A stretch of 64,000 nucleotides of DNA from Lobosporangium transversale (taxonomy: Eukaryota; Mortierellomycota; Mortierellomycetes; Mortierellales; Mortierellaceae). The notes under the pieces are model-generated. The model worked only from the letters and a program-made list of their open reading frames with translations, made no database searches and was not told where the DNA came from. Shown here in pieces: positions 3,345 to 64,000 of the stretch. The position numbers were made by a program, and so were the translations under genes. How positions within the stretch are numbered: the stretch's first letter is position 1; every line of letters begins with the position of its first letter. The DNA lies in the NCBI RefSeq assembly GCF_002105155.1, contig NW_019029020.1, forward strand, positions 1-64,000. Direction: 5' to 3'.

Positions 3345-4428
3345 ATGACAACCCCTTCCCCTGTCCACGGTCCGTACCCTCGTGTGTACCTTGTTCGTCA
3401 TGGCACAACCGAATGGAGCCAGAATGGCCGCCACACTGGTCTGACAGATATTCCCCTCCTACCAAGCGGGATCGAGCAAGCCAAGTTGTTGTCTGAACGG
3501 TATTGAGGAAACAGAGCAAAAAAAAAAAAAAATAATCAAAAACTGATGCAGAACAGTCTAAAGCACGAAGAACGAAATGCATCTAATCGGCGGATTGCTC
3601 CTGTTGTTTTCTTTTTTTTTTTTTTTTTTTTTTTTTCCTCCTAGTATTTTCGAGAATCCATTCCAGGATATGGTCCATATCGATAATATTTCTCTAGTTC
3701 TCGTCTCACCTCTTCAACGCGCTCAACAGACTTACCAACAGTTATTACAAGGAGGCCTCTCCAAGGAACAACGTGAAGGAACGAGTCAACACCATTCTTC
3801 TTGTTTTACTCGAACACAAGCTCGTACAACCTCTTTATTGACCGAATGGGATTACGGCGACTATGAAGGAATTACCACCAAAGAGATCCTTAAGTCCCGC
3901 CCGACCTGGTCTTTATTCGGTGATAATGCTCCTGGAGGTGAAACCGTTGAACAAGTCTCGGCTCGTGCAGATGCTATCATTGAACTCATCCATAATTTCC
4001 AACGAGGCCAGAATTCCGATGGGAAAAAGACCAACACATTGAGAATGCCTTTTTCAGGACCGGAAATTGTTAACGCTGCCGCTTCTGCCGAGACTTTACG
4101 ACAGTCAGAACATACCATTCAAGAAAACAGAGATAATAATCAACGTCATCATGATCACGCTAACAATGTCCAACCCACAATCGATAAGGCAGTCGTAACC
4201 ATTCCTGATAATCCTACGACGCGTGACGTCTTGGTAGTAGCTCATGGACATTTCTTGCGAGTCTTTGCAGCCCGATGGCTCAGATTAGATGGCATCCAAG
4301 GCAAGAACTTTGTCCTCGACACGGCTAGTGTTTCTGTTCTCGGATATGAACATACTCTGGAGGAACGTGTCATCAAAGTCTGGAACCAAAGCAACCATCT
4401 CTGGAAGGATAACACTCGTATCGGCTAG
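3345..4428 (+). CDS. SHB17: Histidine phosphatase (phosphoglycerate mutase-like), SHB17-type sedoheptulose-1,7-bisphosphatase
   Basis: Two exons, 3345..3499 and 3645..4428, joined in frame (CG|T gives Arg52), encode 312 residues. The catalytic RHG motif lies at residues 18-20 in the context LVRHGTTEW, followed by a typical G-R-x-T-G-L-T-D segment; the second catalytic His is at about 252 in VVAHGHFLR. The segment [10 protein letters not shown] carries the acidic catalytic Glu and closely resembles yeast Shb17, which removes a phosphate from sedoheptulose-1,7-bisphosphate to feed ribose synthesis. Between the central part and the second His there is an extra low-complexity insert of about 50 residues rich in Asn, His and Ser that Shb17 lacks. 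No signal peptide is visible, so it is probably cytosolic. The intron ends in a long poly(T) tract and CTAG. It is convergent with the next gene, 143 bp apart. Another sugar-phosphate substrate within the family is possible. Confidence 0.85.
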
Positions 4429-18594: not shown

Positions 18595-19977
18595 ATGGGT
18601 AAAGAAAAGACTCACGTTAACGTCGTCGTTATTGGACACGTCGATTCCGGCAAGTCCACCACCACTGGTCACTTGATCTACAAGTGCGGTGGTATCGACA
18701 AGCGTACCATCGAGAAGTTCGAGAAGGAGGCCGCTGAGCTCGGAAAGGGCTCTTTCAAGTACGCCTGGGTTCTTGACAAGCTCAAGGCTGAGCGTGAGCG
18801 TGGTATTACCATCGATATTGCCCTCTGGAAGTTCGAGACCCCCAAGTACTACGTCACCGTCATTGACGCTCCCGGACATCGTGATTTCATCAAGAACATG
18901 ATTACTGGTACCTCCCAGGCTGACTGCGCCATTCTCATTATTGCTGCTGGTACTGGTGAGTTCGAGGCTGGTATTTCCAAGGAAGGTCAGACCCGTGAGC
19001 ACGCTCTCCTTGCCTTCACCCTTGGTGTCAAGCAGCTCATTGTTGCCATCAACAAGATGGACTCCACCAAGTGGAACAAGGAGCGTTTCGAGGAAATCGT
19101 CAAGGAAGTTTCCACCTTCGTCAAGAAGGTCGGTTACAACCCCAAGGCTGTTGCCTTCGTCCCCATTTCTGGCTGGCACGGAGACAACATGTTGGAGGAG
19201 TCCGTCAACATGCCCTGGTACAAGGGATGGGTCAAGGAGACCAAGGGTGGTGAAGTCAAGGGTAGGACTCTCTTGGATGCCATTGATGCCATCGAGCCCC
19301 CAGCTCGCCCCACCGACAAGCCCCTCCGTCTTCCTCTCCAGGATGTCTACAAGATTGGCGGTATCGGAACAGTGCCGGTCGGTCGTGTTGAGACCGGTAT
19401 CATCAAGGCCGGTATGGTTGTCACCTTCGCTCCCACCAACGTCACCACTGAAGTCAAGTCCGTCGAAATGCACCACGAAGTCCTCACTGAGGGTATTCCC
19501 GGTGACAACGTCGGATTCAACGTCAAGAACGTCTCTGTCAAGGATATTCGCCGTGGTAACGTCTGCTCTGACTCCAAGAACGACCCCGCCAAGGAGGCTG
19601 CTTCCTTCAACGCTCAGGTTATCGTCTTGAACCACCCTGGTCAGATCTCGAACGGATATGCTCCCGTTTTGGACTGCCACACTGCCCACATTGCCTGCAA
19701 GTTCTCTGAGATTCTTGAGAAGATTGATCGCCGTACCGGTAAGGCCACCGAGGAGTTCCCCAAGTTCATCAAGTCTGGTGATGCTGCCATCGTCAAGATG
19801 GTTCCCTCCAAGCCTCTCTGCGTTGAGACTTTCCAGGAGTACCCCCCTCTTGGACGTTTCGCCGTCCGTGATATGCGTCAGACCGTTGCTGTCGGTGTCA
19901 TCAAGTCCGTTGAGAAGACTGATGGCAAGGGCGGTAAGGTCACCAAGGCTGCCCAGAAGGCTGGTGGCAAGAAGTAA
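18595..19977 (+). CDS. TEF1: Translation elongation factor 1-alpha
   Basis: A single uninterrupted reading frame of 460 residues encodes EF-1alpha, the GTPase that brings aminoacyl-tRNA to the ribosome. The P-loop GHVDSGKS is at 14-21, DAPGH near 91-95 and NKMD near 153-156; domains 2 and 3 follow and the lysine-rich C-terminus ends KAGGKK. Length and sequence are normal for a fungus. Codon use is strikingly different from the neighbours, with mostly C or G third positions (AAG, GTC, ACC), the mark of a very highly expressed gene, and there is no intron in the coding part although nearby genes average several. The bias creates a long antisense open frame that is not a gene. A polyadenylation-like AATAAA lies near 20063. 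Convergent with the transporter ending at 20194. Confidence 0.99.
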
Positions 19978-44494: not shown

Positions 44495-47400
44495 TTACTT
44501 CTTGTTGTTGTAAAAGTTAATCTTGGGATCTTGTTGAGGGTTATAGCTCAATCGCAGATTTGGAAATTCGAAATATGGATCATGTTGTGCGAGATCCGGA
44601 CAGTTCTTAGGCGGGAACTTGTTAATTGTCGCAATTAGCTCGTTGACACGAAGTGGTTTTGTGATATATTCGTCCTATAGGAAAAAAGAAAAACAAATTA
44701 GATCAAGAAATGAACTAGAAAGCAGGAAGTTATAGCACTTAGTACAATGCATAAAATAAAAACTTACCATGCCAGCAGCAAGACACTTCTCTCGATCACC
44801 AATCATAGCGTGTGCAGTCAAGGCGATAATGGGCAAGTGTTCGGTCCTGCCTTTGAGTAACTCTAGCTTTCTGATCTCCTGCGTAGCCTCAAATCCTCCC
44901 ATGATCGGCATCTGGACATCCATCAAAATCAAATCAAAGTGCTTGCTATCGTAGAACTCGACTGCCATCTTGCCGTTCGAGACAATCGTCACTTTGTGTC
45001 CAAACTTCTCCAAGATACGGACCGCAAGCTTCTGATTCACAACATTATCCTCTGCCAGCAAAATATGCAATGGAATCGCATGCTCAGCATCAGATGGCAA
45101 CGCTGATGCAGACTCGAAAGCAGGCAATAAGGCATTCATCAGATCAGGTAGTTGCACTGGTGGGTTAAAATAGCTGGCAATGCCCAATTCCTGGCAGACC
45201 TTCATGCTGATATAGGGTGTGGTCATGGACAACAGCACAATGGGCAGGAATCGAAGCATGGGGATCTCCTTGATCTTGCGGATATCCTTTACATTGTCAA
45301 CAATCACCACATCAAACATTGATTTCTCAGATGAAGAGCCCGAGCCCGAGCCCGGAGCTTGGACTAGAGTATGGGCTTGCTCGAGTGATGACATATACGT
45401 AGCCTTGAATTTGAGCTCCTCCAGCGTTCTTACGACTGAGCTAGAAATGACATCGTCGCGCATCGTTCCCAAATAAAGGATATGACGTCCAACATATGGC
45501 TTCGTCTTGAGATTGATCTGATCCACAGACATGGTACCTGTGTTAAACCGCACTGTAAAGAAGAATTGTGATCCTTTTCCGAAGATACTATTCACCCACA
45601 GATCACCTCCCATCAACGTCACCAGACGCTTGGAGATAGAGAGACCGAGCCCAGTACCACCGTACTTGCGTGTGGTGGAACCATCAGCCTGACAGAACGT
45701 ATCAAAGACGACTTCGATCTTATCACTTTGAATTCCAATTCCCGTATCCGAGACACAGAATTGAAGTTCAACACCAACATCCGTTTTGTTTTTGCAGACA
45801 CAGTCTAGAACAACACTACCCTCGGTTGTAAACTTGATGGCATTTCCGATCAAGTTAGTGATGACTTGGCGAAGGCGAAGTGGATCGCCCACAAGTTGGT
45901 CAGGGAAATCGTTATGGACATTGTAAATCAAATCCAGTTTCTTCTGATGAGCTTTCACGGCCAGAGTCTTAAGTACTCCAAATGCCTGGGTTCTCAACGA
46001 GAATGGAGCTTGCTCAATTGTCATCTTACCAGCCTCAACTACGTAGTTTTTTTTTTTTTATAAAAAAAAAAAAAAAAAAAAGGAAGAAAAAAAAAAATTT
46101 ACATAAATATTTCATTATAGACAAAAAATTCAAATCACCAGCTACAATGCTGTAACAAAAGAGCATCAACTTACTCTTTGAGATATCAAGAATATCATCA
46201 ATAATCGTCAGGAGTGAATGGGCCAAGTGACTAACAATCACCAAGTTTTCACGTTGTTGACGGGTAAGCTCAGTTTCCAGAGTGAGACTGGTCATTCCGA
46301 TGATTCCGTTCATGGGGGTTCTAAATAAAAAGAAGAAGAAAAAAAAAGTTAGGTGCTTTCAAAAATTACAGTAAGGACTTTAAAACATAATAAAAAGTGC
46401 AGTAATTACCTAATCTCGTGCGACATGTTTGCCAAGAACTCGGATTTGGATCGATTGGCAAGCTCAGCGGCTTCACGAGCAGCGGTGTTCTTTTGAATAC
46501 TCTCGCGAAGGTTGTAAACCATCTGATTGATCTTGGTCTTAAGCGAATCCATCTCTCCGGAGGCCTCAACAGTGATAAACTGAGTGAAATCACCATCCGT
46601 TGCAGCAGTCGAAATGGAGGCAAATGCACGTACTTGTGCTGTCAAATTGCTAGCCATTGTATTGACGTTTGATGTGATTTCCTTCCATGTTCCACGTACA
46701 TCCTCCACCTGTGCTTGCACGCCCAATTTGCCTTCGGTACCGACCTCTCGAGCGACACGCGTTACCTCATTAGCAAACATGGAGAGCTGATCCACCATGA
46801 TATTGATCGTGTTCTTAAGGTCCAACATCTCACCCTTGACCTCGACTGAAATCTTCTTGGAAAGATCACCTCGAGCAACGGCTTTACTGACATCGGCAAT
46901 ATCACGTACTTGTGCTGTAAGATTGGCAGCCATGGTGTTGACGTTGTCAGTCAGCTCCTTCCAGGTACCATCAACCCCTGTGACTTCAGCCTGACCTCCT
47001 AGACGACCTTCTGTACCGACTTCACGAGCTACACGAGTTACCTCGGCGGCGAATGTTCTCAGCTGTTCGACCATAGAGTTGACAGTAATCTTCACCTCAG
47101 AGATCTCTCCTTGTGCTTCGACATCAATGGTCTTACTCAAGTCTCCTGCTGCGACAGCGGTGGTAACTTCAGCGATGGATCGTACCTGTGTTGTCAAGTT
47201 CGAGGCCATGGTGTTGACATTATCTGTGAGTTCTTTCCAAGTTCCATCAACACCTTTGACAATGGCTTGACCTCCAAGTTTGCCTTCTGTTCCGACTTCA
47301 AGACTGACTCTGGTAACCTCGGTGGCAAACTCTTGCAGCTGGTCCACCATGATGTTGATCGTGTTCTTAAGATCCAACATCTCACCCTTGACCTCAACTG

Positions 47401-50400
47401 AAATCTTCTTGGACAGATCACCTCGAGCGACGGCTTTACTGACATCAGCGATATCACGTACTTGTGCTGTAAGATTGGCAGCCATGGTGTTGACGTTGTC
47501 AGTCAGCTCCTTCCAGGTACCATCAACTCCTGTAACCTCAGCCTGGCCTCCTAGACGACCTTCTGTACCGACTTCACGAGCCACACGAGTTACCTCGGCA
47601 GCGAATGTTCTCAGCTGCTCCACCATAGAGTTGACAGTAATCTTCACCTCAGATATTTCTCCTTGTGCTTCGACATCGATAGTCTTACTCAAATCACCTG
47701 CTGCGACAGCGGTTGTGACATTGGCGATGGATCGTACTTGAGTTGTCAAATTGGCAGCCATGGTGTTGACATTGTCTGTGAGGTTCTTCCAAGTACCGCT
47801 AACATCCTTAACAACAGCCTGTCCTCCAAGTTTGCCTTCAGTTCCGACCTCTAGACTGACTCTGGTGACCTCAGTGGCAAACTCTTGAAGCTGGTCCACC
47901 ATGATGTTGATCGTGTTCTTAAGATCCAACATCTCACCCTTGACCTCGACTGAAATCTTCTTGGACAGATCACCTCGAGCGACGGCTTTACTGACATCAG
48001 CAATATCACGTACTTGTGCTGTAAGGTTGGCAGCCATGGTGTTGACGTTGTCAGTCAGCTCCTTCCAGGTACCATCAACCCCTGTGACTTCAGCCTGGCC
48101 TCCTAGACGACCTTCTGTACCGACTTCACGAGCCACACGAGTTACCTCGGCAGCGAATGTTCTCAGCTGCTCCACCATAGAGTTGACAGTAATCTTCACC
48201 TCAGATATTTCTCCTTGTGCTTCAACATCGATGGTCTTGCTTAAGTCTCCTGCTGCGACAGCGGTGGTAACTTCAGCGATGGATCGTACCTGTGTTGTCA
48301 AGTTCGAGGCCATGGTGTTGACATTATCTGTGAGTTCTTTCCAAGTTCCATCAACACCTTTGACAATGGCTTGACCTCCTAGTTTACCCTCGGTACCGAC
48401 TTCAAGACTGACTCTGGTGACTTCAGTGGCGAACTGTTGCAGCTGGTCCACCATAATGTTGATCGTGTTCTTAAGATCCAACATCTCACCCTTGACCTCA
48501 ACTGAAATCTTCTTGGACAGATCACCTCGAGCGACGGCTTTACTGACATCAGCAATATCACGTACTTGTGCTGTAAGGTTGGCAGCCATAGTGTTGACGT
48601 TGTCAGTCAGCTCCTTCCAGGTACCATCAACCCCTGTGACTTCAGCCTGACCTCCTAGACGACCTTCTGTACCGACTTCACGAGCCACACGAGTTACCTC
48701 GGCAGCAAAGGTCCTCAGTTGTTCGACCATAGAGTTGACAGTCTTCTTCACCTCAGAGATCTCTCCTTGTGCTTCAACATCGATGGTCTTACTCAAATCA
48801 CCTGCTGCCACAGCGGTTGTGACATTGGCGATGGATCGTACTTGAGTTGTCAAATTAGCAGCCATGGTATTGACATTGTCTGTGAGGTTCTTCCAGGTAC
48901 CACTGACATCCTTGACAACAGCCTGTCCTCCAAGTTTGCCTTCAGTTCCGACCTCAAGACTGACTCGGGTGACTTCAGTGGCGAACTGTTGCAGCTGGTC
49001 CACCATGATATTCATCGTGTTCTTGAGATCCATCATTTCTCCTTTGACTTCGACAGAAATCTTCTTGGACAGATCACCTCGAGCGACGGCTTTACTGACA
49101 TCAGCAATATCACGTACTTGTGCTGTAAGATTGGCAGCCATGGTGTTGACGTTGTCAGTCAGCTCCTTCCAGGTACCTTCAACACCTTTGACTTCAGCCT
49201 GGCCTCCTAGACGACCCTCTGTGCCGACTTCACGAGCTACACGAGTTACCTCGGCAGCGAATGTTCTCAGCTGTTCGACCATAGAGTTGACAGTAATCTT
49301 CACCTCAGATATTTCTCCTTGTGCTTCGACATCGATGGTCTTACTCAAGTCTCCTGCTGCAACAGCGGTGGTAACCTCAGCGATGGATCGTACCTGTGTT
49401 GTCAAATTGGCAGCCATGGTGTTGACATTGTCTGTGAGATTCTTCCAAGTGCCGCTAACACCTTCGACCTTAGCCTGTCCTCCAAGTTTACCCTCGGTGC
49501 CGACCTCAAGACTGACTCGGGTGACTTCAGTGGCAAACTCTTGTAGCTGGTCCACCATGATGTTGATCGTGTTCTTAAGATCCAACATCTCACCCTTGAC
49601 CTCGACTGAAATCTTCTTGGAAAGATCGCCGAGAGCAACAGCTTTACTAACGTCCGCAATGTCACGAACTTGTGCAGTAAGATTGGCAGCCATGGTGTTG
49701 ACGTTCTCAGTCAGTTCCCTCCAAGTACCAGCAACACCTGTGACCTCAGCCTGGCCTCCTAGACGACCTTCTGTTCCTACTTCACGTGCGACACGGGTGA
49801 CCTCGGCAGCGAACATCCTAAGTTGCTCCACCATGGAGTTGACAGTAATCTTAACTTCGGAGATCTCTCCTTGTGCTTCGACATCGATGGTCTTGCTCAG
49901 GTCTCCAGCTGCGACAGCGGTGGTAACCTCGGCGATGGATCGTACTTGAGTTGTCAAATTGGCAGCCATGGTGTTGACATTGTCTGTGAGGTTCTTCCAG
50001 GTACCACTAACATCCTTGACAACAGCCTGTCCTCCAAGTTTGCCTTCAGTTCCGACTTCAAGACTGACTCGGGTGACCTCAGAGGCGAACCGTTGTAGCT
50101 GATCTACCATGATATTCATCGTGTTCTTAAGGTCCATCATTTCTCCTTTGACTTCGACAGAAATCTTCTTGGACAGATCACCTCGAGCGACAGCCTTACT
50201 GACGTCGGCAATATCACGTACTTGTGCAGTAAGGTTGGCAGCCATGGTGTTGACGTTGTCAGTCAGCTCCTTCCAGGTACCTTCAACACCTTTGACTTCA
50301 GCCTGGCCACCTAGACGACCTTCTGTACCGACTTCACGAGCCACACGGGTGACCTCGGCAGCGAACATCCTAAGTTGCTCCACCATGGAGTTGACAGTAA

Positions 50401-53400
50401 TCTTCACCTCAGAGATCTCTCCTTGTGCTTCGACATCGATGGTCTTACTCAGGTCTCCTGCTGCGACAGCAGTCGTAACATTGGCGATGGATCGTACTTG
50501 TGTTGTCAAATTGGCAGCCATGGTGTTGACATTGTCTGTGAGGTTCTTCCAAGTGCCACTAACACCTTCAACCTTAGCCTGTCCTCCGAGTTTACCCTCG
50601 GTACCGACCTCAAGACTGACTCTGGTGACCTCAGTGGCAAACTCTTGAAGCTGGTCCACCATGATGTTGATCGTGTTCTTAAGATCCAACATCTCACCCT
50701 TGACCTCGACTGAAATCTTCTTGGAAAGATCGCCGAGAGCAACAGCTTTACTAACGTCCGCAATGTCACGAACTTGTGCAGTAAGATTGGCAGCCATGGT
50801 GTTGACGTTGTCAGTCAGCTCCTTCCAGGTACCATCAACACCTTTGACCTCAGCCTGGCCTCCTAGACGACCTTCTGTTCCTACTTCACGAGCTACACGA
50901 GTTACCTCGGCAGCGAATGTTCTCAGCTGTTCGACCATGGAGTTAACAGTAATCTTCACCTCAGAGATCTCTCCTTGTGCTTCGACATCAATAGTCTTAC
51001 TCAAGTCACCTGCTGCGACAGCGGTGGTAACCTCAGCGATGGATCGTACTTGAGTTGTCAAGTTAGAGGCCATGGTATTGACATTGTCTGTGAGTTCCTT
51101 CCAAGTACCGCTGACATCCTTAACAACAGCCTGTCCTCCAAGCTTACCCTCGGTACCGACTTCAAGACTGACTCGGGTGACCTCAGAGGCGAACCGTTGT
51201 AGCTGATCTACCATGATATTCATCGTGTTCTTAAGGTCCATCATTTCTCCTTTGACTTCGACAGAAATCTTCTTGGACAGATCACCTCGAGCGACAGCCT
51301 TACTGACGTCGGCAATATCACGTACTTGTGCAGTAAGGTTGGCAGCCATGGTGTTGACGTTGTCGGTCAGTTCCTTCCAAGTACCTTCAACACCTTTGAC
51401 TTCAGCCTGGCCTCCTAGACGACCCTCTGTGCCGACTTCACGAGCTACACGAGTTACCTCGGCAGCGAACATCCTAAGTTGCTCCACCATGGAGTTGACA
51501 GTAATCTTCACCTCAGAGATCTCTCCTTGTGCTTCGACATCAATAGTCTTACTCAAGTCACCTGCTGCGACAGCGGTGGTAACGTTAGCAATGGATCGTA
51601 CCTGTGTTGTCAAATTGGCAGCCATGGTGTTGACATTGTCTGTGAGGTTCTTCCAAGTGCCACTAACACCTTCGACCTTAGCCTGTCCTCCGAGTTTACC
51701 CTCGGTACCGACCTCAAGACTGACTCGGGTGACTTCAGTGGCAAACTCTTGAAGCTGGTCCACCATGATGTTGATCGTGTTCTTAAGATCCAACATCTCA
51801 CCCTTGACCTCGACTGAAATCTTCTTGGAAAGATCGCCGAGAGCAACAGCTTTACTGACATCAGCAATATCACGTACTTGTGCGGTCAAATTAGCAGCCA
51901 TGGTGTTGACATTCTCGGTCAACTCTTTCCAGGTGCCATCAACTCCTGTAACCTCGGCCTGACCTCCTAGACGACCTTCTGTTCCGACTTCACGAGCCAC
52001 ACGAGTTACCTCGGCAGCAAAGGTCCTCAGTTGTTCGACCATAGAGTTGACAGTCTTCTTCACCTCAGAGATCTCTCCTTGTGCTTCGACATCGATGGTC
52101 TTGCTCAGGTCTCCTGCTGCGACAGCGGTGGTAACCTCGGCGATGGATCGTACTTGAGTTGTCAAATTAAAGGCCATGGTATTGACATTATCTGTGAGCT
52201 CCTTCCAAGTACCGCTGACATCCTTAACAACAGCCTGTCCTCCAAGTTTGCCTTCAGTTCCGACCTCAAGACTGACTCGGGTGACTTCAGTGGCGAACTG
52301 TTGCAGCTGGTCCACCATGATATTCATCGTGTTCTTAAGGTCCATCATTTCTCCTTTGACTTCGACAGAAATCTTCTTGGACAGATCACCTCGAGCGACA
52401 GCCTTACTGACGTCAGCAATATCACGTACTTGTGCTGTAAGATTGGCAGCCATGGTGTTGACGTTGTCAGTCAGCTCCTTCCAGGTACCTTCAACACCTT
52501 TGACTTCAGCCTGGCCACCTAGACGACCTTCTGTTCCGACTTCACGAGCTACACGAGTTACCTCGGCAGCGAATGTTCTCAGCTGTTCGACCATAGAGTT
52601 GACAGTAATCTTCACCTCAGATATTTCTCCTTGTGCTTCGACATCGATGGTCTTACTCAGGTCTCCTGCTGCAACAGCGGTGGTAACGTTAGCAATGGAT
52701 CGTACCTGTGTTGTCAAATTGGCAGCCATGGTATTAACATTGTCTGTGAGGTTCTTCCAAGTGCCACTAACACCTTCAACCTTAGCCTGTCCTCCGAGTT
52801 TACCCTCGGTTCCGACCTCAAGACTGACTCGGGTGACCTCAGTGGCAAACTCTTGAAGCTGGTCCACCATGATGTTGATCGTGTTCTTAAGATCCAACAT
52901 CTCACCCTTGACCTCGACTGAAATCTTCTTGGACAGATCGCCGAGAGCAACAGCTTTACTAACGTCCGCAATGTCACGAACTTGTGCAGTAAGATTGGCA
53001 GCCATGGTGTTGACGTTCTCAGTCAGTTCCCTCCAAGTACCAGCAACACCTGTGACCTCAGCCTGGCCTCCTAGACGACCTTCTGTTCCTACTTCACGTG
53101 CGACACGGGTGACCTCGGCAGCGAACATCCTAAGTTGCTCCACCATGGAGTTGACAGTAATCTTAACTTCGGAGATCTCTCCTTGTGCTTCGACATCGAT
53201 GGTCTTGCTCAGGTCTCCAGCTGCGACAGCGGTGGTAACCTCGGCGATGGATCGTACTTGAGTTGTCAAATTGGCAGCCATGGTGTTGACATTGTCTGTG
53301 AGGTTCTTCCAGGTACCACTAACATCCTTGACAACAGCCTGTCCTCCAAGTTTGCCTTCAGTTCCGACTTCAAGACTGACTCGGGTGACCTCAGAGGCGA

Positions 53401-56085
53401 ACCGTTGTAGCTGATCCACCATGATGTTCATTGTATTCTTGAGATCCATCATTTCTCCTTTGACTTCGACAGAAATCTTCTTGGAGAGATCACCTCGGGC
53501 GACTGCTTTACTGACGTCGGCAATATCACGTACTTGTGCGGTCAAATTAGCAGCCATGGTGTTGACATTGTCAGTCAGTTCCTTCCAGGTACCTTCAACA
53601 CCTTTGACTTCAGCCTGACCTCCTAGACGACCTTCTGTACCGACTTCACGAGCCACACGAGTTACCTCGGCAGCAAATGTCCGCAGTTGTTCGACCATGG
53701 AGTTGACAGTCTTCTTCACCTCAGAGATCTCTCCTTGTGCTTCAACATCGATGGTCTTACTCAAATCACCTGCTGCGACAGCGGTCGTGACATTGGCGAT
53801 GGATCGCACTTGAGTTGTCAAATTGGCAGCCATGGTATTGACATTGTCTGTGAGGTTCTTCCAAGTGCCGCTAACACCTTCGACCTTAGCCTGTCCTCCG
53901 AGTTTACCCTCGGTACCGACCTCGAGACTGACTCTAGTAACCTCAGTGGCAAACTGTTGCAGCTGATCCACCATGATGTTCATCGTGTTCTTGAGATCCA
54001 TCATTTCTCCTTTGACTTCGACAGAAATCTTCTTGGACAGATCACCTCGAGCGACAGCCTTACTGACGTCAGCAATATCACGTACTTGTGCTGTAAGATT
54101 GGCAGCCATGGTGTTGACGTTGTCAGTCAGCTCCTTCCAGGTACCATCAACACCTGTCACCTCGGCTTGGCCTCCTAGACGACCTTCTGTACCGACCTCA
54201 CGTGCGACACGTGTGACTTCTGCGGCAAATGTTCTAAGCTGATCCACCATGGTATTCATAGTCTCCTTCAGTTCAAGTATTTCTCCCTGGACAGGGACAC
54301 TAACTTTCTTCGTCAAATCTCCGCATGCGACGGCTTTACAGACTGTGGCGATATCTCGAATATGGCCTGTGAGATTCGAAGCCATCAAGTTGACATTGTC
54401 CGTGAGTTCTTTCCACGTTCCGCTGACATCTTTAACGTGGGCCTGACCACCGAGTTTTCCTTCTGTACCTACTTCCAGACTCACGCGGGATACTTCTGTG
54501 GCAAACTCCTGCAGTTGATCTACCATGGTGTTGATTGTGTGCTTCAAGTCTCCCATCTCTCCCTTGACTTCAACAGAAATCTTCTTGGACAGATCACCTT
54601 TTGCGACAGCTTTACTAACACTTGCAATATCTCTGACCTGCGCTGTGAGGTTGGCGGCCATGTGGTTGACATTGTCAGTCAGCTCCTTCCAGGTTCCATC
54701 AACGCCTTTGACATGTGCCTGGCCTCCTAGGCGACCCTCAGTACCGACTTCATGTGCCACCCGAGTAACTTCAGAGGAAAATGAACGCAATTGATCAACT
54801 AGTTGAAATATAATATTTAGAGAAAAAAGATTAGACACTGACGAAAGAAGTAAAAATAGAGTGGGGCGGTCGACAAGTGTGTTTGAAGTATAAATAAAAG
54901 AGTCCTTAATCATGCTCACTTACCCATCGTGTTGATCGTATTTTTCAATACAAGTGTTTCACCTTGGACAGCAACTGTGATCTTTCGGCTGAGATCACCA
55001 TGAGCGACAGCTGTACAGACAGAGGCAATATCACGTACTTGCTCTGAATGGATGATGCTCATGGTATTCAGGTTGGACACAAATTGTTTCCAGATACCGT
55101 GCTCGTTCTTCATACTCGCTTGGAAGCCCAATTTACCTTGCACTCCCTGGGCTGTAACCTGGATGACCTCATTTGTAAATGTGGATAGCTTATTAAGCAT
55201 TTGATTGATGGAAACGACTAGGTCTGACTGACTGCAGGCGGGGTTGCTGCATTTTATCCGTACAGCCAGGTCGCCTCTAACCACTGCAGCTGCGAGCAAG
55301 GCACATTGATGGATGCAGTCAACACATGGGGCGATACCCGTAGTTGCGGTAGTTGTCTTTGGTGTTGGTGCAGCAGCAGTTGTCGTAGTTGTTGTCGTCA
55401 TAAGATTGGATAAGATGGGGGTGCGCAAAGGTGAGATTGGTGTGGTGTCCTTGACAGCTGCGGCTGTTGTGATGGGTGATGAGACCATGGTCTGGCCATG
55501 TCCGGATGGCTGACCATTCAGATCCGTAGGTTGAACAAAGCAAAGCGGGCCATTGTCGGTTGCTTCGATCGAATGTGCTGCTAGTGCTGATGCAATCGGC
55601 TTGGGACGATGAATAGTGACTGATGATTGATCAGACACTTGGGTATGAGCGGCCCTTGCTTGCGAGAGCGTATGCAGTGGGTGGGATGTGCGCTCCTGTT
55701 GTATACTTGAGTGAGTAGGAATATGATTGACAAATTCCCAATTACCATCGTTCAACCGAAAAGACGAAGCTGAACCTGGGGGCGAGAGTGAGTCGACAGG
55801 GGGGGTGAGAATAGGAGGAGCGAGGACAATGTCGGATACGACAGGATGAAGGGGCTTCCGGGTGCGTGCAAGTTCCTGCTCCATCAAGAGCATCTTTTTC
55901 ACTACCCGCTGTAATGAGGCATCGACCTTTTGAATATATTGTGGTGTGGTGGCATCAACAAAATCAAGTGGAAGAGGGTGTGGCGAGACAAAGGAGAAAT
56001 AAACTGGGTCAAAGTCCTTGTCCTGCGCTAACAGGTCGAAGACGTTGCCGACATGCTTAATGTATTCCTCTTCGTACGTGGTCAT
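44495..56085 (-). CDS. NIK1: Giant group III hybrid histidine kinase with 31 full HAMP units (Nik1/Os-1 type)
   Basis: Five exons, complement of 54924..56085, 46410..54798, 46175..46320, 44768..46038 and 44495..44674, encode 3,715 residues; Neurospora Os-1 has about 1,300. Group III kinases are cytosolic osmosensors that control the Hog1 MAP-kinase path and are targets of phenylpyrrole and dicarboximide fungicides. Residues 1-270 are a disordered N-terminus; a partial HAMP and 31 full units of about 92 residues follow. The kinase part has the H-box NMSHEIRTPMNG (His3181), N-box [21 protein letters not shown], and [13 protein letters not shown]; the receiver domain has LLAEDN, phospho-acceptor Asp about 3606 in LILMDVQMP, and the Lys of YITKPLR. 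All catalytic residues are intact. No membrane helix or PAS domain is present. An intron interrupts the H-box, and the whole 8.4-kb repeat array is a single exon. Confidence 0.95.
49627..50104. repeat. Near-identical block shared with 52939-53416
   Basis: Read side by side, the two blocks appear identical over about 478 bases, 3,312 bases apart, which is exactly twelve 276-base units. Both carry the same otherwise rare variants (a TGTTCCTACTTCACGTGCG stretch and the AGTTCCCTCCAAGTACCAGC stretch). Differences appear again just outside (for example one base at 50105 versus 53417). Confidence 0.85.
52939..53416. repeat. Near-identical block shared with 49627-50104
   Basis: This is the second copy of the block described at 49627. 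It lies inside the HAMP array, in the same register of the two-type alternation, as expected for unequal crossing-over or gene conversion that keeps the frame. Confidence 0.85.
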
Positions 56086-57071
56086 TGTGAAGAGGAAAAG
56101 AGAAAAAAAGGAAGAAGAAGGAGAAGAAACAATGGATGGGGAGGATGGGGGATGCTGTAGCGGTTGTATTAATAGGTAGAAGGAGTGGTGGAAGGGTTGG
56201 CGTCAGGTATTTGTGAAGGGCACCAAGGAGTAGAGATGGAAAGGAAAGTAGAATAGAAGGTTAGAAACCACAGAAACAAAGCATGTATGCAATTCAGTTA
56301 TAAAAAAAAAAAAAAAAAAAAAAAAGCACAGGCAACACACATACACTCTCACACTCTCCCTCGTTCACTCACTCTGGGAAATAAAAAAGGGAAGAGAGAA
56401 TGTAATGATAATAACAATAACAATAATAATAATAATAATAATAATAATAGTAATAAAGAGGTAGAGAGAAAGGATGGGGGGGGGAATGGGTGCGAGGACG
56501 ATGAAAAGAAAGGAAGAGGTGAGGAAAGAGAAAGAAGAGGGAATAAAAATAAGGATGGAGCCAGGGGGGCGGAAGATAAAATAAAATTGGAGAATAAAGA
56601 ATGGACTGCCCTGACTGTTATGAATGTGTGTTTGGGGAGTGGAGAGGAAAGAAAGAAAAGAAAAAAAAAAAAAAAAAAAAAAAGTTGCCTTGCCTGCAAA
56701 AGCGAAGGGAAGTTCTGTTTTCACTTGAGCATGCACACACAACACACAAACGCAAATTAATAATCCGTCTTGTGGTCGTCTTTGTCAATAAGGAGAGGTT
56801 AAAAGATGGGAAAAAGAGAGAGAGAGAGACAGAAAAGGATTAGTGCGATATACGGATTTCCTTTAAAAAAAACAGAAAAGGAAAGAAAAATGTGATTTGC
56901 TGATCATACAGGGACAATAACAAAAGGAAAGGAATTGAGAGGAAATGGAATGAATCTGTTTCGAGGTAGTGGTGAGATAGTGCTTTGTGAAAAATAGTTT
57001 AGAATGAAGAAAGTATTAGTTGTTAGTAGAGTTGAGGGAAGTAGTCGGGTTGGAGCATGGGAGCAGAAAAG

Positions 57072-57108
<37 letters not shown>

Positions 57109-58743
57109 GCAAGAGCATGCTAATCCTATCCTGTCCAATTCACACACAAAACAAGCGAAACGCATCACTCCTAAATCCCTATTCATCATCAAATCACATT
57201 TCTGTCGTCTCTGAACCATTCAAGACCTCTTCTGGCACAGGCACGGAACACTAAGGCTCTCTTCACACACACAAACCATTGTGCATGCATGCATGCAAGC
57301 AAGCACAACTGCACAAAAATGCGGAAACAAAAAAAAAAAAAAAACAATAGCACATGGATTACACAACAATCAAATCAGGCTATCAAGCAAGCGATGTCAA
57401 ACATTTCTTGACCCTTATTTTGGTCCGCGCATGTTCACAGCTGCCTCATTCAAACACCATGAGCATGTTGCACTACAGCAAGCTAATGCAAAAAGTATAA
57501 AACTGTCGAGCCCATCCAGACATGAAAAAATTCAATAAAAGAAAACCCCCGTACAACCAATGAATATAAAAATAAAGATCTTCTGAACCTGATCATTGCA
57601 CCTCTGAGCCATCCGTCCAACCATTTTTTTTTTTTTTTTTTTTAAAAGAGAGCTTTTTTTTTATACATATTGTTGTCGTTGCACAAGAACCAGCACATCC
57701 ACACACCGACAAGACACAGCATTTCACAAATACAATTCAGCCTGCCTGAGATCTCCTGGATCGTCTCTATACCCTCACAACTTCTTTATCACCTCTTTAA
57801 AATGGAAATAAAAAATAAAAAAGATTTTTTCCCCTAATGCTTTGCCCTTTAGCGCTTTACTTAGCCTATTAAACATGTAGTAGTATGAACCATACTAATC
57901 ATCAAGGAACATTGTACGGTGTGGACGGAAGAGGAAAAAATGGCCGAGTCTGGACCCAAAATTTGCTTTTTTTTTTTTTTTTAACTCTTTTTGTTCAACC
58001 AAGGAAAAAAGGGGCATGCAATGTGTCTCTTGAACCTTTGTCTGTCTACCATATTGGCCCCCGCCCGTGCGTGTGTGGGGTGAGAGCCCCTTAAAGTAGC
58101 TTCCAACAACCTTTGCGGCCTTTATATTGCATTTATCCCCCCCATCATTCTCCTCCAATCGTTTTTTTTAAAAGTTGGTCTTTAAACCTGAACCCTGAGA
58201 GTGGATCCCGATCCATTCAACAAATGCACCAACATAATCAACGACAACAACAACGATAGAGAATAAATAAATCACTGATGGGTCAGGATAGGATCAAAAT
58301 GGAGATGTTTAGAAGACATGCAGGGGAATAAAATATCAAAAGCTGTAATCCATCTTTTGCATGAACATGTTGATGTTGTGTACAAAACAAAAAAAAAAAA
58401 AAAAAAAAAAACTCGTTCAGCCTGAAGCCTGAGGAACCCGTGTTACAAAGGAAGACACCTTGAATGTTATTGCACAATCATACTCCCTTTTTTTCGATGC
58501 AAGGTAACATGCATGTTGGATGAGAAAATGAAGCATTAATCTGCTCACCCAAGCAAAGAGCATGTTCCCAAAAAGGTCATTACGGCCAGTTTCACCTTCC
58601 AGAATCCATGCGGACACGCGGCAAAAAAAAAAAAAAAAAAAAAAAAAAATACCGCCTTTTCGTCTGCCTCGTCCATGTCTTTTGATAGTTTTTTAATATT
58701 TATTTCTGCTTGAGATGTTCGAGAACATTAAAACAACTCAAAG

Positions 58744-58796
58744 AGACAAAGACAAAGACAAGACAAGACAAGACAAGACAAGACAAGACAAGACAG
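58744..58796. repeat. Minisatellite, GACAA/GACAAA units
   Basis: About ten units read GACAAA then GACAA in tandem, ending at GACAGCGCC. Perfect in its right half, so it is probably length-variable between strains. Confidence 0.85.
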
Positions 58797-59971
58797 CGCC
58801 TCCTCCCCTCCTCCTCCTCCCCTATTTTTTATCCATACAAAGATGTGCCAGCATGGTCTGTCTAGTTTTGCCTAATGCTCAACCCTTGATGTCACTCGAA
58901 GGCGCTTCGGAGACAAAAAAAAAACTGATGCGCATGGATGGCAGCATGAATATGGGAACTGATGTTCTCAATCTCAAAAGTAAACACACGCACACACACC
59001 CCTCAGAATTTGTGCAACCCAAGAAAGAAAAAAAAAGAAAAAAATTCTCTGTGTCTGGCATGCAGACAACTTTTTCCCTTGTTTCCCGTTTTTTCAGTTC
59101 ATCACTTTCATTTGCCAGCTTAGGGATAGCACAAGGAAAAAGGAAAGAATGAAGAAAAAAAAGAAAAAAGAAAAGAAAAGAATAAAAGAAAAGAATAAAA
59201 GAAAAGAGAAAAAAAACAAAAAAAGTAAAGAATAGACAAAATAGGTAGAATACAAGGGGAAACAGACACAAAAGAGAGTGTGTGAAAGTAAGACGCACGC
59301 ATCGATCCTTATCGAAATAGTCCCTCTTCCATCTTACCAGCTAGCTGACTGTGCAAAAAGAGAAAGGATGATGTTCAAGTGTCGTTGCTCCTGCCCGAGT
59401 GGAGAGAGATCAGTTTCCAACTCGATAGATGCGTTTTTTCTTTCTTTTGTCTATCCGGTTTCAATGGATAGGTATTAATTCGGATATAATCAAAAATCCT
59501 GGCTTTTGTCCGTTTGTGTTGATTAAAAGAATAAAGTTCCTGATCGAGAAGCGTCGCCAGTCTAGAGTGATTAAATACAAAGAAAGAAGGGGAAGTAAAA
59601 AAGAAAGAAAGAAAGAAAAAAAAACGCAGTCAATCAGATGGGATAAAAAAAAAAAGAGAGCGAGAGAGAGAGAGAGAGAGAGAGAAAGAGGGAGTACAGA
59701 ATTCTGAGGAGGAAAAGTAAAGCATCGACATCAAGCATGACATAGTTTAGCTTAGCATAGCGTCTGGCATGTAATGAAAGAATGCCAGGGCCAAAAAAAA
59801 GTACCTGTTCTGCCCAATCCCAATGTTCCTGAGTGCCGCTCAATAAATTATTTTTAATCACACGTGGCAAAGACGAGGATCCACTACTTTATGGAAAACA
59901 TGTACATGAATAAATAATAATCAATCGTACAGAATGAGCACAAACGAAAGAGCTTTAGTTATATCCCGTTT

Positions 59972-60002
<31 letters not shown>

Positions 60003-60149
60003 GTTTGCCAATGCATGTTGATTATTACACTGTGAAGTGATGAAATGTTGCACTACCAGAGATTAGACGGATAGACAAACACACAACGAAAAAAAATAAA
60101 AAAAAATAAAAAAAAATAAAAAGTTACAATGATGTTCTACAAATGTAAT

Positions 60150-60331
<182 letters not shown>

Positions 60332-61098
60332 TGACAATGGGATGAAGCACTCGAATGATTGAGACTAAGCCAAGTCTGCAATCTCAATTCGAACAGAAGT
60401 AAAGTGTGTGGCTGGGTGATTATTGAAGGAAACGATGCGAGGGGTGCAGAAAATGTGTCCTAAAGATTAAGAAAGAGAGAGGACATTAAACATGGCCCTC
60501 TGCTTCCCTTCATTCAATCCTCTGCGTTATTTCTCTCAGGGCAATTGCAAATGCAAATGAACCAATGCTGAAGCTGAGCTTGTAAACTCGCTTTTGTAAC
60601 GTTAAGATTCGTGGGGTGCGTGACAATCTCATTTAGGGCATGTTGCTCTCCCGAATGTGGTTATTTTGTGTTACCCTTTTAGCCACCAAATGAAATTACA
60701 AACTAAGATAATTTTTTTTTCTCCCCCTTTTTTTTTATTTTTTGGAAACAGCTCTTAGGGATGGGATCAGTTGTGGCGGATAGACATGTTTCCTGATTTC
60801 TATCCTCTTTGGATGTAGTAGCATCTACACCCATTAGTATCATTACCATTATCAAAAAATATATAAAAATAAAAATAAAAATAAAAAAAAGTTCTCGATA
60901 AGCTTCTTTTGGTTATCACCAGAAAAGGATAGACCAAATAGGGATCAAATGAGTGTTGAAAGTAGATCATTACTTTGATTAGCAACCCAGATAGTCCAAT
61001 AGGTCTAATAGTTTTCATGCTTCTTGACGACACTGATACTAAGCAAATTATATGCAGCAAACTTAAGCTATTTATTCCCTATTGTTGTCTACCTCTTT

Positions 61099-61130
<32 letters not shown>

Positions 61131-61470
61131 CGCCCAACTTTTTGGGTGAAGCACAAACAAATTCCATTTGGCGGTTACAGTTGCATTTTCCCGCCCTTTT
61201 TATTTTTTTTTTAGAACAATTGCTTCTATCTGGAGCTTATGTACACGTACTTCTTCTGTCGTATATGATTCTCAGATGCAGTATTTTCCTTGAGTTAATG
61301 TAGACAGACTTGGGTTCAGACATGTAACAGAATCTGCATACATTTTATGTACGGTGTTCACATTGTACATATTCATCGAAACATTTTAGGTACGGCGTGC
61401 ATACGTGCATGCAGAGATGAGAGAACGGTGCAAGATGACGACGATGACGCGTTTCGCATCCAAGTATATA

Positions 61471-61510
<40 letters not shown>

Positions 61511-62092
61511 GGCACTGAATAGACTACAACAGACATTTCATGTCAAAGATTACGCTAGACAACTGAAGTCAATCATCGAAATAGCTTATTAACTCTTCAG
61601 CGCCTTCTATGCATGCCCAGTCAATTAAATAAATAAAATAAAATAAGACGGTATCCATGCACCATCTCTTTTTCTCTCTCGCACAGTCCCATCGAAATAG
61701 ATGCAAGACCACATCAAGGTTTCTGATCAGGTGACATGAATTTATCAATGTTTTGTTTCTGATAACTGTAGCCTCGAGGAACACTAAAGAGAGAGAGAGA
61801 AATGTATACACGACCAAGTATATAGATATTCATGGTGTGTAAATGTATAAATATGTCTTTGTTTATGCGCCTTAAGAAAACGGAGTAAGAGAGAGAGTTG
61901 TCGAGCGATAAACATATTCGTGTTGAATATGTAGCGTCGCTAAATAGAATGCATGAATATAAGGCACAATTGCATTGCATTTGGATATCAGGAAAAAGAG
62001 ATGATTGCAAACCGTCAACATCTATAAGAGGATAAAAGTAAAAAGGATGAAAGCAGAAAAATCCAAAAGACTTTAGCAACATCAGCAATTTT

Positions 62093-62164
62093 TTATGAAG
62101 CTTCGTCTCTGCCACCAATATCTCCATTATAGTTAATTCGATCACCAAGACCCAAATAAGGTGC
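62093..62164 (-). other. Possible terminal coding exon of an unresolved gene
   Basis: After an acceptor TTTAAGCTTTCAG, the minus strand reads 23 residues, beginning APYLGLGDRINYNGD and ending GGRDEAS, then a TAA. The composition is protein-like for such an AT-rich area. I could not find its upstream exons in 62165-64000, so it may be the end of a gene with very small exons, as TVP18 is, or chance. Confidence 0.25.
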
Positions 62165-62627
62165 CTGAAAGCTTAAACAAAATATCAGTTAAACGTTGCT
62201 ATTACAGGTAGACAGAACAGAAAAAGAAACACAAACACCGTTAACCCAATCGCACCAATAGAAAGAAAGAAAAAAAAAGTTGTACACGTACTCCTCAGGG
62301 GTGGGAGAAAGTAAAGATAGACAAGACTTTGAGAGCAACAAAAAAAAAAAAAAAAAAAATGGATAAATGCGCGAAAAGAAGAATAGGCATTTGTATTCTC
62401 ATTTTTCGTTTGTATATTTATATAATAAAGAAATTCAGAAATGTACGATGAGTCGCAGAGTACAAATATGACATAACGCATGTGTTGTTGTTCCACTTGC
62501 CGAAGTGAAAGTAACAAGTAACTATGAGCTTATTTCGAGGAAGAAGGAAAAAAAAAAACTTTTTACTTGAACCCACTTTTCTGCATGACTGATATAACGA
62601 CGCGTCAAAACTCAGATGGCGATGACC

Positions 62628-62658
<31 letters not shown>

Positions 62659-63319
62659 ATTGGATTGGTTGAAGAGAGAGCCAATCAATGTCTTTTGATG
62701 CGGTATTTATACATGTACACTTCTTTTTATTGAGCGTAATAAAGAAACCTCTCTTCTCTTCCTGGAACTCCCGCACCAGCAAAAAACGATCCTAACCTTT
62801 TTTAGAAATTCATTTCTAATTTTTAGGGCTGACCGAGGACAAGGCAGGGCTCTCGTACAACCACCAACCCCAAACAACTCGCCCAAAGAGTTTATTGAAT
62901 CTTGAACGAACACATCATCCGTAAATATTTTATATGAATAAATACACAACATTAATAAACTATATGGCCATAATAAACAACGCTGTAAAATGCATCTACT
63001 GTGGAAAAAGGTCATGTGGTCCCTTGCTTGCATGTTACACAGCTTGCTATGTAGGTACCCTCATGCTCCGCGGGGTTGTATGGCGTTTATACGAAAGGGA
63101 TCGCTCTTGCATTTTTCCATCTCTATTCAATTATTCGCTCAAAGGTCCTACATGATTGACCGACATTAAATCTGTACACAAAGTATATACAACCAACCAA
63201 AGTAAACAGTAAGTATCCAATTGCTTATCTCTGGTACAGACGGTATTTTCGATACACATCTTTGCCTTGCTTTGTTCATCTCAATGACCTCACCTTGTAA
63301 TATACTTCTTGTATGCATA

Positions 63320-63351
<32 letters not shown>

Positions 63352-64000
63352 CTTTCTCCTTTCTTTTTTAACAAATCATAGGAAAGAAAGGAAGAAAAGA
63401 AAGTTGGACTAATTTCCTGCAACCAGAGTACAGTCCATTTTGGATTCAATCAATTGTCAAGACATAATGCCTGAAAGCGACTTCACATTTTCTTTACGTG
63501 TTCAATCTAGCCTAGGCGACTAAGAAACAAGAGAGTGGATTCTTTCTCGTGTACATTCACAAAATAGCTCCGATCTGTTTTTCAACGCCTCTTTTCTTAT
63601 TTATTTAATTTTCGTTCGCGTAGTAAAAAAAAAAAAAAAAAAGTAACACTGCCGTCCTGCCTCATTATATTTTTTCTTTTTTTTAAAAAAAATAAAATAA
63701 AATAAAATAAAAAATATATTTATATATATTTATATATATAAATATATATATATATATCCGTAACTGCATATTCATGAATGAAAAATAAATGGAAAATTGC
63801 GTTTATTTTTGGCCCTCGGAGAGCATAACAATCTGCTTTGGTCCTGCGGGAAGGATGATTGGCAGTGATAGTTGTAATGAATGGTGTTGCGTTTTTTTTT
63901 TTTTTTCTTTTTTCTTTTTGAAGGGGTTTAAAAACTTGTCTGATGGCCAATTAGAGGTTGTCATACCAATCTCTTATTGCACATTTTCAACATGCAATAA
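62165..64000. other. AT-rich region without supported gene
   Basis: The region carries poly(A) runs (62339-62359, 62628-62656), a poly(T) run at 63321-63350, an A run near 63625-63642 and an alternating AT/TATA tract at about 63713-63757. A moderately protein-like minus-strand frame lies at about 62720-62925 (for example DDVFVQDSINSLGELFG) but has no splice or start context that I can support. Confidence 0.4.

Follow-up and report, generated by a model that had tools for sequence, protein, structure and literature searches.

The closest described relatives of the gene analysed here are the fungal group III hybrid histidine kinases Nik1, Os-1, Bos1, TcsC and CaNik1p, which carry N-terminal tandem repeats of 92-residue HAMP pairs followed by HisKA, HATPase and receiver domains, with no obvious membrane helix. 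To our knowledge, what these kinases sense is not settled, although osmosensing and a phenylpyrrole response, both by way of HOG, count among the traits of the group. Class III kinases of studied Dikarya are described as having 'five to six' repeats (PMC3418262), a signature of the H-box has been named as a group III feature (PMC4965123), and phenylpyrrole fungicides are reported to need group III kinases to act (PMC6433957). We analysed a 64,000-nucleotide window at the start of a contig (C65) of the soil fungus Lobosporangium transversale. The window holds a kinase of the same architecture that differs in its number of units, 31 against five or six, in an interior expanded in R-S pairs and in a divergent SKN7 neighbour. 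Because the convention used for CaNik1p counts 92 residues as a pair of HAMPs (PMC3848655), 31 units correspond to about 62 HAMPs.

A preliminary description of this DNA had delimited a kinase of 3,715 residues, and its boundaries proved correct to the base in a spliced five-exon model with an open frame (Table 1). The exons lie on the minus strand at 56085-54924, 54798-46410, 46320-46175, 46038-44768 and 44674-44495, all four introns (125, 89, 136 and 93 bp) run from GT to AG, and there is a single terminal stop. The 31 full units in frame, also part of that description, were recovered by a unit HMM applied to the spliced model (31 full, 0 partial). The 92-residue spacing was exact for 30 of the unit anchors, and an N-terminal half-unit was recognized by eye ahead of unit 1. 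Tandem Repeats Finder returned a period of 276 with 26.6 copies (score 5592) for the array, and Pfam HAMP and HAMP_2 matched 12 times each within the C-terminal 1,195 residues encoded by exon 2.

Table 1 Features of the kinase locus of L. transversale (positions in the window)
Feature	Position	Strand	Remarks
Group III hybrid histidine kinase gene	44495..56085	-	spliced model; five exons, 3,715 aa; P0020 match 100% identity
Receiver domain, main part (exon 4 end)	44768..45064	-	Pfam Response_reg, E 7.9e-22
HATPase_c domain	45545..45889	-	Pfam, E 8.3e-28
Exon 3, HisKA region	46175..46320	-	H-box crosses the intron 2 junction; its histidine at the exon 2 end
HAMP units 2-31 (residues 387-3146)	46523..54927	-	coordinates include intron 1
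Interior units 5-30	46799..53974	-	lineage-specific expansion by unit comparison; alternating R/S units, 552-bp module
Intron 1	54799..54923	-	between units 1 and 2; paralogue intron in the same place
HAMP unit 1 (residues 295-386)	54928..55203	-	divergent N-terminal cap unit
Cysteine tip C254, C257, C261, C279, C284	55234..55326	-	N-terminal half-unit; CxxCxxxC...GDL..RI.CxxxxC
Gap, left part	56086..64000	.	~11.6 kb between kinase ATG and presumed SKN7 ATG (C65:67654, beyond the window)

The HisKA, HATPase and receiver domains first described as intact were confirmed by Pfam (HisKA scored at C65:46173-46325), with the H, N, G1 and G2 boxes and the receiver Asp and Lys all present; the end of the receiver carrying the TKP lysine is encoded in exon 5 (44495-44674). 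A Kyte-Doolittle scan, the one method applied to the claimed lack of a membrane helix, revealed no convincing segment and hence no obvious helix. Its best 19-residue means were 1.78 at residue 251, where the first HAMP has a polar stretch that includes cysteine, and 1.66 in HisKA. A quick kinase-domain tree, built without bootstrap and without Ascomycota, contained a clade of 15 Mortierellomycota rows (SH-aLRT 100) that includes P0005, named NIK1 at source. The initial assignment to group III (Nik1 type) stands on this grouping together with the HAMP repeats and the catalytic module. By these features the L. transversale gene is a genuine group III hybrid histidine kinase in a long-array form, and its product is very probably functional and probably soluble.

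An array of this size could be an assembly expansion, or the gene a pseudogene or annotation error, and the deposited model P0020 (BCR41DRAFT_360209; 2,214 aa) is indeed labelled 'partial', matching residues 1502-3715 exactly and covering 18 of the 31 units. However, no identical DNA pairs were present among the 156 same-class and 169 between-class pairs compared (units 4-29), and a single exact repeat in the array (482 bp) exceeded 209 bp, the length of the next longest. The frame is open throughout, and 30 units are found in a Mortierella alpina relative from a separate assembly. Differences between same-class units were mainly silent (dS 0.52, dN 0.03; dN/dS about 0.06), and these substitution patterns show strong purifying selection within unit classes. 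Assembly expansion was rejected on the lack of identical units among those compared, the mainly silent same-class divergence and the single longer repeat. An artefact of any of these kinds appears highly improbable, and unit-level divergence supports the copy number of 31 as credible.

The expectation of five to nine repeats voiced at the outset fits the studied Dikarya but not the early-diverging fungi, in which long arrays were usual among those found, nor Dacrymycetes and Mycena, where they are also present. Counts ranged from 17 to 31 units in 14 Mortierellomycota proteins, reached 38 in Kickxellomycotina and were 24-27 in Dacrymycetes; natural arrays as a whole span about 9 to 38 units. 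Among these 14 Mortierellomycota proteins the L. transversale array is the longest, and a paralogue in the same genome has 17 units. Thirty-one units is high, not exceptional. Among the open-licence PMC papers listed in literature searches, none dealt with long arrays in early-diverging fungi.

When the best match of each unit was sought across ten arrays, units 1, 2, 3, 4 and 31 had theirs in the same-position unit of another array, and units 5-30 inside their own array (26 of 26). This own-array share was the highest among the six arrays for which it was available, and own-array best matches were far fewer in most other arrays. Amino-acid identity between units was 0.90 at lag 2 versus 0.68 at lag 1, and all eight exact repeats of at least 120 bp lay at even unit offsets. 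These comparisons show, at the level of unit sequences, that the interior has grown or been homogenised in the L. transversale lineage as alternating R and S units. A strict R-S order does not hold generally, since it is lost in M. alpina P0001, in Entomortierella P0005 and in the Linnemannia arrays inspected, and a check of the unit counts by eye gave no even/odd bias in total unit number. An AlphaFold model of three units, of very low confidence (mean pLDDT 38), had helices of 33-36 residues and connectors of 10-13 residues.

The preliminary description had proposed a length-dependent or strain-type sensor. In such a design the interior HAMP units would themselves sense osmotic or mechanical strain and their number would set the threshold. 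For Dikarya, it has been suggested that HAMP repeats take part in sensing osmotic stress and in the response to fungicides (PMC3418262, PMC3848655), and the strong purifying selection on same-class units would be in keeping with it. However, the tree group holding the L. transversale kinase (SH-aLRT 86) includes arrays of 21 (M. claussenii), 26 (Entomortierella) and 31 units, so that no tuned length is seen, and the units that are position-matched between arrays are the end ones. The proposal found no support here, and we regard an interior sensor as improbable; since length varies and the end units are position-matched, a length-tolerant relay suits the array better than a ruler. Somewhat unlikely, in our view, is an ordinary Nik1 osmosensor whose extra interior units are drift tolerated through unequal exchange and gene conversion and whose cysteine tip has no role. 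The wide variation in array length, the homogenisation of the interior within its own array and the 17-unit paralogue all speak for it, but the low dN/dS within classes shows that the sequence of the units, if perhaps not their number, is maintained, and several phyla retain the tip cysteines, with some members lacking them.

The cysteine tip is followed by a long stretch (residues 547-3311; 2,765 residues) with zero cysteines. A four-cysteine pattern was present in 14 of 15 Mortierellomycota and 47 of 69 Mucoromycotina proteins; it was missing from the other 22 Mucoromycotina and from all five Glomeromycotina and all five Basidiobolus proteins. A looser pattern matched none of 3,240 shuffles, nor any of 15 Mycenaceae, 27 bacterial or metagenome and 4 unnamed proteins, nor the 3 from Dacrymycetes, two of whose models start inside the array; its 66 matches in Mucoromycotina all lacked the third cysteine of CxxCxxxC. 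Judged by these patterns, the tip cysteines are conserved in many early-diverging fungi, in several phyla, and are not universal.

Both group III kinase loci of L. transversale lie head-to-head with an SKN7 gene. The neighbour in C65 encodes an HSF-type DNA-binding domain followed by a receiver, and P0161, the named skn7 of L. transversale, matched it at 100% identity over 91% of the query. Among seven HSF loci, a receiver match was nearby only at two, both beside HAMP-array kinases. As an indicator of linkage, kinase and SKN7 were on equal-length contigs in four further species of the 24 in both lists, and in 0 of 9 Mycena. When 92.6 kb of C65 was compared with 69.1 kb of C117 (hits at E 1e-12 or better), matches were limited to the kinase, SKN7 and an INSIG gene; the neighbourhood has therefore been reshuffled, and whole-segment duplication as the origin of the two kinase loci was rejected. 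The kinase-SKN7 intergenic DNA gave only one blastn match, of 43 bp, at the SKN7 end, and an ORF in the neighbourhood had no match in PHROGs. Two Hpt loci were found. No publication on kinase-SKN7 linkage was among the open-licence PMC papers listed. A retained gene pair, if true, would give genomic support for Skn7 as a main partner of the kinase.

The best overall reading, which we consider reasonably probable, is a rod that takes input at its tip and relays it to Ypd1 and Skn7. Two chains would run in parallel along a poly-HAMP rod that comprises about 62 HAMP bundles and measures roughly 150 nm. Input would be taken at the conserved N-terminal tip, where the cysteines could bind metal or serve as a thiol switch; the interior would relay a two-state HAMP signal and tolerate changes in length; and the receiver would pass the output to Skn7, and probably also to Ssk1/Hog1, by way of Ypd1-type Hpt proteins. 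If the rod tip is the input, early-diverging fungi provide a clean test, with a cysteine cluster at one end, the long cysteine-free stretch after it and then the kinase; the natural length variants are ready-made for asking over what distance a HAMP signal can be relayed. More tentatively, early-diverging fungi might possess a distinct group III form. Its HAMP rod would be very long and tolerant of length changes, its conserved cysteine tip would be metal- or thiol-sensing, and its gene would form an ancient divergent pair with the target gene SKN7, so that a eukaryote would have kept a two-component sensor next to its regulator, as bacteria do.

Three features are new here by sequence comparison: position-matched end units versus a lineage-specific R-S interior, the N-terminal cysteine cluster, and the head-to-head pairing of kinase and SKN7. 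Related kinases with 26-38 units are M. alpina P0001, Entomortierella P0005, Linderina P0004 and Martensiomyces P0007, deposited as hypothetical proteins except for P0005. Relative to Nik1-type kinases, the cysteine tip is present here, in a comparison set without Ascomycota. Concatenated HAMP chains are also found in PDB 9trk and 9trj, histidine kinase-Gcn4p fusions that are solved relatives of the unit class by sequence match (9trk aligns over 143 residues, 198 bits), and in the poly-HAMP of Pseudomonas aeruginosa Aer2, of which chain 3vol is a weak match (E 0.013). Aer2 conformers are reported to give opposite outputs (PMC3570549). Aer2 and 9trk/9trj have few HAMPs compared with the approximately 62 of the L. 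transversale kinase.

The group III (Nik1-type) hybrid histidine kinase was resolved into five exons separated by four introns, all GT..AG; the only stop is the terminal one. A 92-residue unit profile made from this protein and its L. transversale paralogue found 31 full units, bearing out the coordinates and count of the preliminary description. A half-unit, seen by eye and without a Pfam match, precedes unit 1. Pfam returned HAMP and HAMP_2 repeatedly, plus HATPase_c and receiver domains; HisKA scored in a separate search, and the catalytic boxes are intact. The deposited partial L. transversale protein P0020 matched residues 1502-3715 of the model at 100%. By the CaNik1p convention (as given in an excerpt of PMC3848655), a 92-residue unit comprises two HAMPs, so the array amounts to approximately 62 HAMPs. 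The two antisense open frames lying over it probably reflect the codon composition of the repeat. Elsewhere in the window, a gene that we take from its sequence to be elongation factor 1-alpha-like carries an antisense open frame as well.

Coordinates of the kinase and of associated features (C65, contig of the window; C117, contig of the paralogue; L009, L012 and L019, stretches fetched outside the window)
Feature	Position	Strand	Remarks
Kinase	window 56085-44495	minus	3,715 residues
Tip cysteines (five)	window 55234-55326	minus	residues 254-284 (31 residues), in half-unit
Antisense open frame	window 48864-49949	plus	361 aa
Antisense open frame	window 52176-52856	plus	226 aa
Elongation factor 1-alpha-like gene	window 18595-19977		493-codon antisense open frame
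(GA)n tract	window 60150-60328		179 bp, kinase-SKN7 intergenic region
SKN7	C65:67.65-70.8 kb (L012 4654-7787)		just right of window, head-to-head with kinase
INSIG-like gene	C65:77.7-79.9 kb (L019)
Second kinase	C117:575044-583296 (L009 544-8796)		2,479 residues, 17 units
INSIG-like gene	C117:583.9-584.9 kb

Copies made by an assembler would be identical, and none of the 325 pairs compared among units 4-29 was identical in DNA, which therefore argues against the assembly expansion that the preliminary description had named as a possible flaw. The assembly (42.7 Mb, 127 contigs) is presumably a long-read one. Same-class unit pairs (n = 156, units 4-29) had a mean dS of 0.52 and dN of 0.03 (ratio 0.058), and between-class pairs (n = 169) a dS of 1.9. 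The nearest pairs among all 31 units, 7/19 and 8/20, reached 99.6%. Eight exact repeats of at least 120 bp occur in the array (the longest 482 bp, the second 209 bp), all at unit offsets of 2, 4, 6 or 12. By these sequence measures purifying selection acts on the array, which is old and in frame.

A unit-by-unit comparison of ten Mortierellomycota arrays found that units 1, 2, 3, 4 and 31 of the L. transversale kinase best match the unit at the corresponding position in a different array, whereas its units 5-30 best match within their own (26/26). Own-array shares, given for six of the ten, were 26/31 for the L. transversale kinase, 4/21 for M. claussenii, 16/30 and 6/23 for two M. alpina kinases, 11/26 for Entomortierella and 6/17 for the L. 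transversale paralogue. Two unit types, R and S, assigned from a single short motif, alternate strictly over units 2-30, with identity of 0.90 at lag 2 against 0.68 at lag 1; the same alternation is present in a nine-unit Glomeromycotina kinase (Funneliformis), is nearly kept in M. claussenii and the second M. alpina kinase, and is lost in other relatives. The array thus looks fixed at its ends and able to expand in between, apparently by pairs of units in the L. transversale kinase. In a quick kinase tree this kinase grouped with M. claussenii and Entomortierella (SH-aLRT 86), and M. alpina P0001 had no resolved position.

All 44 HAMP matches in the L. transversale genome fell at two loci, that of the kinase and that on C117. 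The C117 kinase is 92% identical in the kinase module and has two extra introns inside its array, at unit boundaries. SKN7 (HSF DNA-binding domain plus receiver) adjoins each kinase and is transcribed away from it; among seven HSF loci (nine matches), a receiver match lay near the two kinase-side loci only, in a search that scores no more than its best candidates. Kinase ATG and presumed SKN7 ATG are approximately 11.6 kb apart at the window locus and, by eye, roughly 4-5 kb at C117. The first intron of the window-side SKN7 looks GC-AG by eye. The fetched surroundings of both loci share only kinase, SKN7 and INSIG, the INSIG-like genes differing in relative position.

In an SKN7 protein search, a hand tally among the matches listed placed SKN7 and kinase on equal-sized contigs in 4 of 24 species common to both lists: L. 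elongata AG-77 (1,195,173), M. hygrophila (38,885), Gryganskiella cystojenkinii (73,994) and Basidiobolus meristosporus (130,707). None of nine Mycena species did so among the matches listed. L. transversale itself is among the 20 non-equal species because its listed SKN7 stems from a 4,299-base contig; such cases say little, Mycena perhaps excepted, since many contigs are too short for both genes or represent another paralogue or strain. Distance and orientation were read in L. transversale only.

Two protein searches, ranked by array similarity (lengths approximately 1,537-4,891 residues) and by kinase similarity (approximately 1,217-3,874) and each giving at most its best 120 matches, gave 160 proteins among the matches listed, or 162 with the two L. 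transversale models. This set is a non-random sample grouped by hand from source names, and errors within the array are possible in some of the public gene models.

Full units per protein among the matches listed
Group	Full units	n	Median
Mortierellomycota	17-31	14	23
Partial Mortierellomycota models	11-20	5
Mucoromycotina	10-26	76	18
Kickxellomycotina and other Zoopagomycota	15-38	8
Basidiobolus	9-20	5
Glomeromycotina	8-9	5
Dacrymycetes	24-27	3
Mycenaceae	14-20	15
Bacteria or metagenome	13-18	27
Unnamed sources	16-22	4

The 31-unit kinase was confirmed as an observation; its uniqueness was not. It ranks third among the matches listed, behind Linderina with 38 units (in a model marked as partial) and Martensiomyces with 33. 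Judged from sequence, the long array is common among early-diverging fungi in the matches listed; no description of this form was seen among the papers that literature searches listed. The bacterial or metagenome kinases (P0066, P0086, P0104 and others) have units of the same 92-residue kind, and many carry GAF-type accessions in their Pfam lists. They are perhaps relatives of the fungal family's source.

The kinase has 16 cysteines, including the five of the tip and others at residues 182, 357, 541 and 546, with none at residues 547-3311. A looser tip pattern, CxxC...G-x-[LF]..R[IVA].C, sought in the first 900 residues, was present among the matches listed in Mortierellomycota (14/19), Mucoromycotina (66/76), Glomeromycotina (5/5), Zoopagomycota (4/8) and Basidiobolus (2/5), and absent from Dacrymycetes (0/3), Mycenaceae (0/15), bacterial or metagenome (0/27) and unnamed (0/4) proteins and from shuffled sequences (0/3,240). 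Four of the five Mortierellomycota models lacking it start inside the array; the fifth, Gryganskiella, keeps the motif's second part, the first being absent from the model. The four-cysteine form occurred among the matches listed in 14/15 Mortierellomycota (P0015, P0020, P0121 and P0122 left out), 47/69 Mucoromycotina (after removal of seven models whose start lies beyond the motif, though at least one more of that kind, P0022, stayed in) and 3/7 Zoopagomycota (P0004, from Linderina, left out), and in no Glomeromycotina (0/5) or Basidiobolus (0/5). The nameable proteins of this comparison included no Ascomycota. The tip cysteines are thus kept in many early-diverging fungi among the matches listed, and the tip is a putative zinc or thiol site.

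In Aer2 chimeras, the two conformers between which HAMPs switch give opposite outputs (as described in an excerpt of PMC3570549), and two fusions of a comparable poly-HAMP, 9trk and 9trj, are deposited in the PDB; by analogy with both, the array is likely a parallel dimeric rod. At an estimated 2.6 nm or so per HAMP, 62 HAMPs would span about 160 nm. An AlphaFold model of three units had helices 33-36 residues long with short connectors between them, at a mean pLDDT of 38 that gives no evidence for the fold. Most likely, the fixed N-terminal tip would take the input, the interior units would relay the signal and the fixed last unit would set the kinase. In yeast, Skn7 mediates oxidative stress responses. 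The parts most worth following are the cysteine tip and the neighbouring SKN7.
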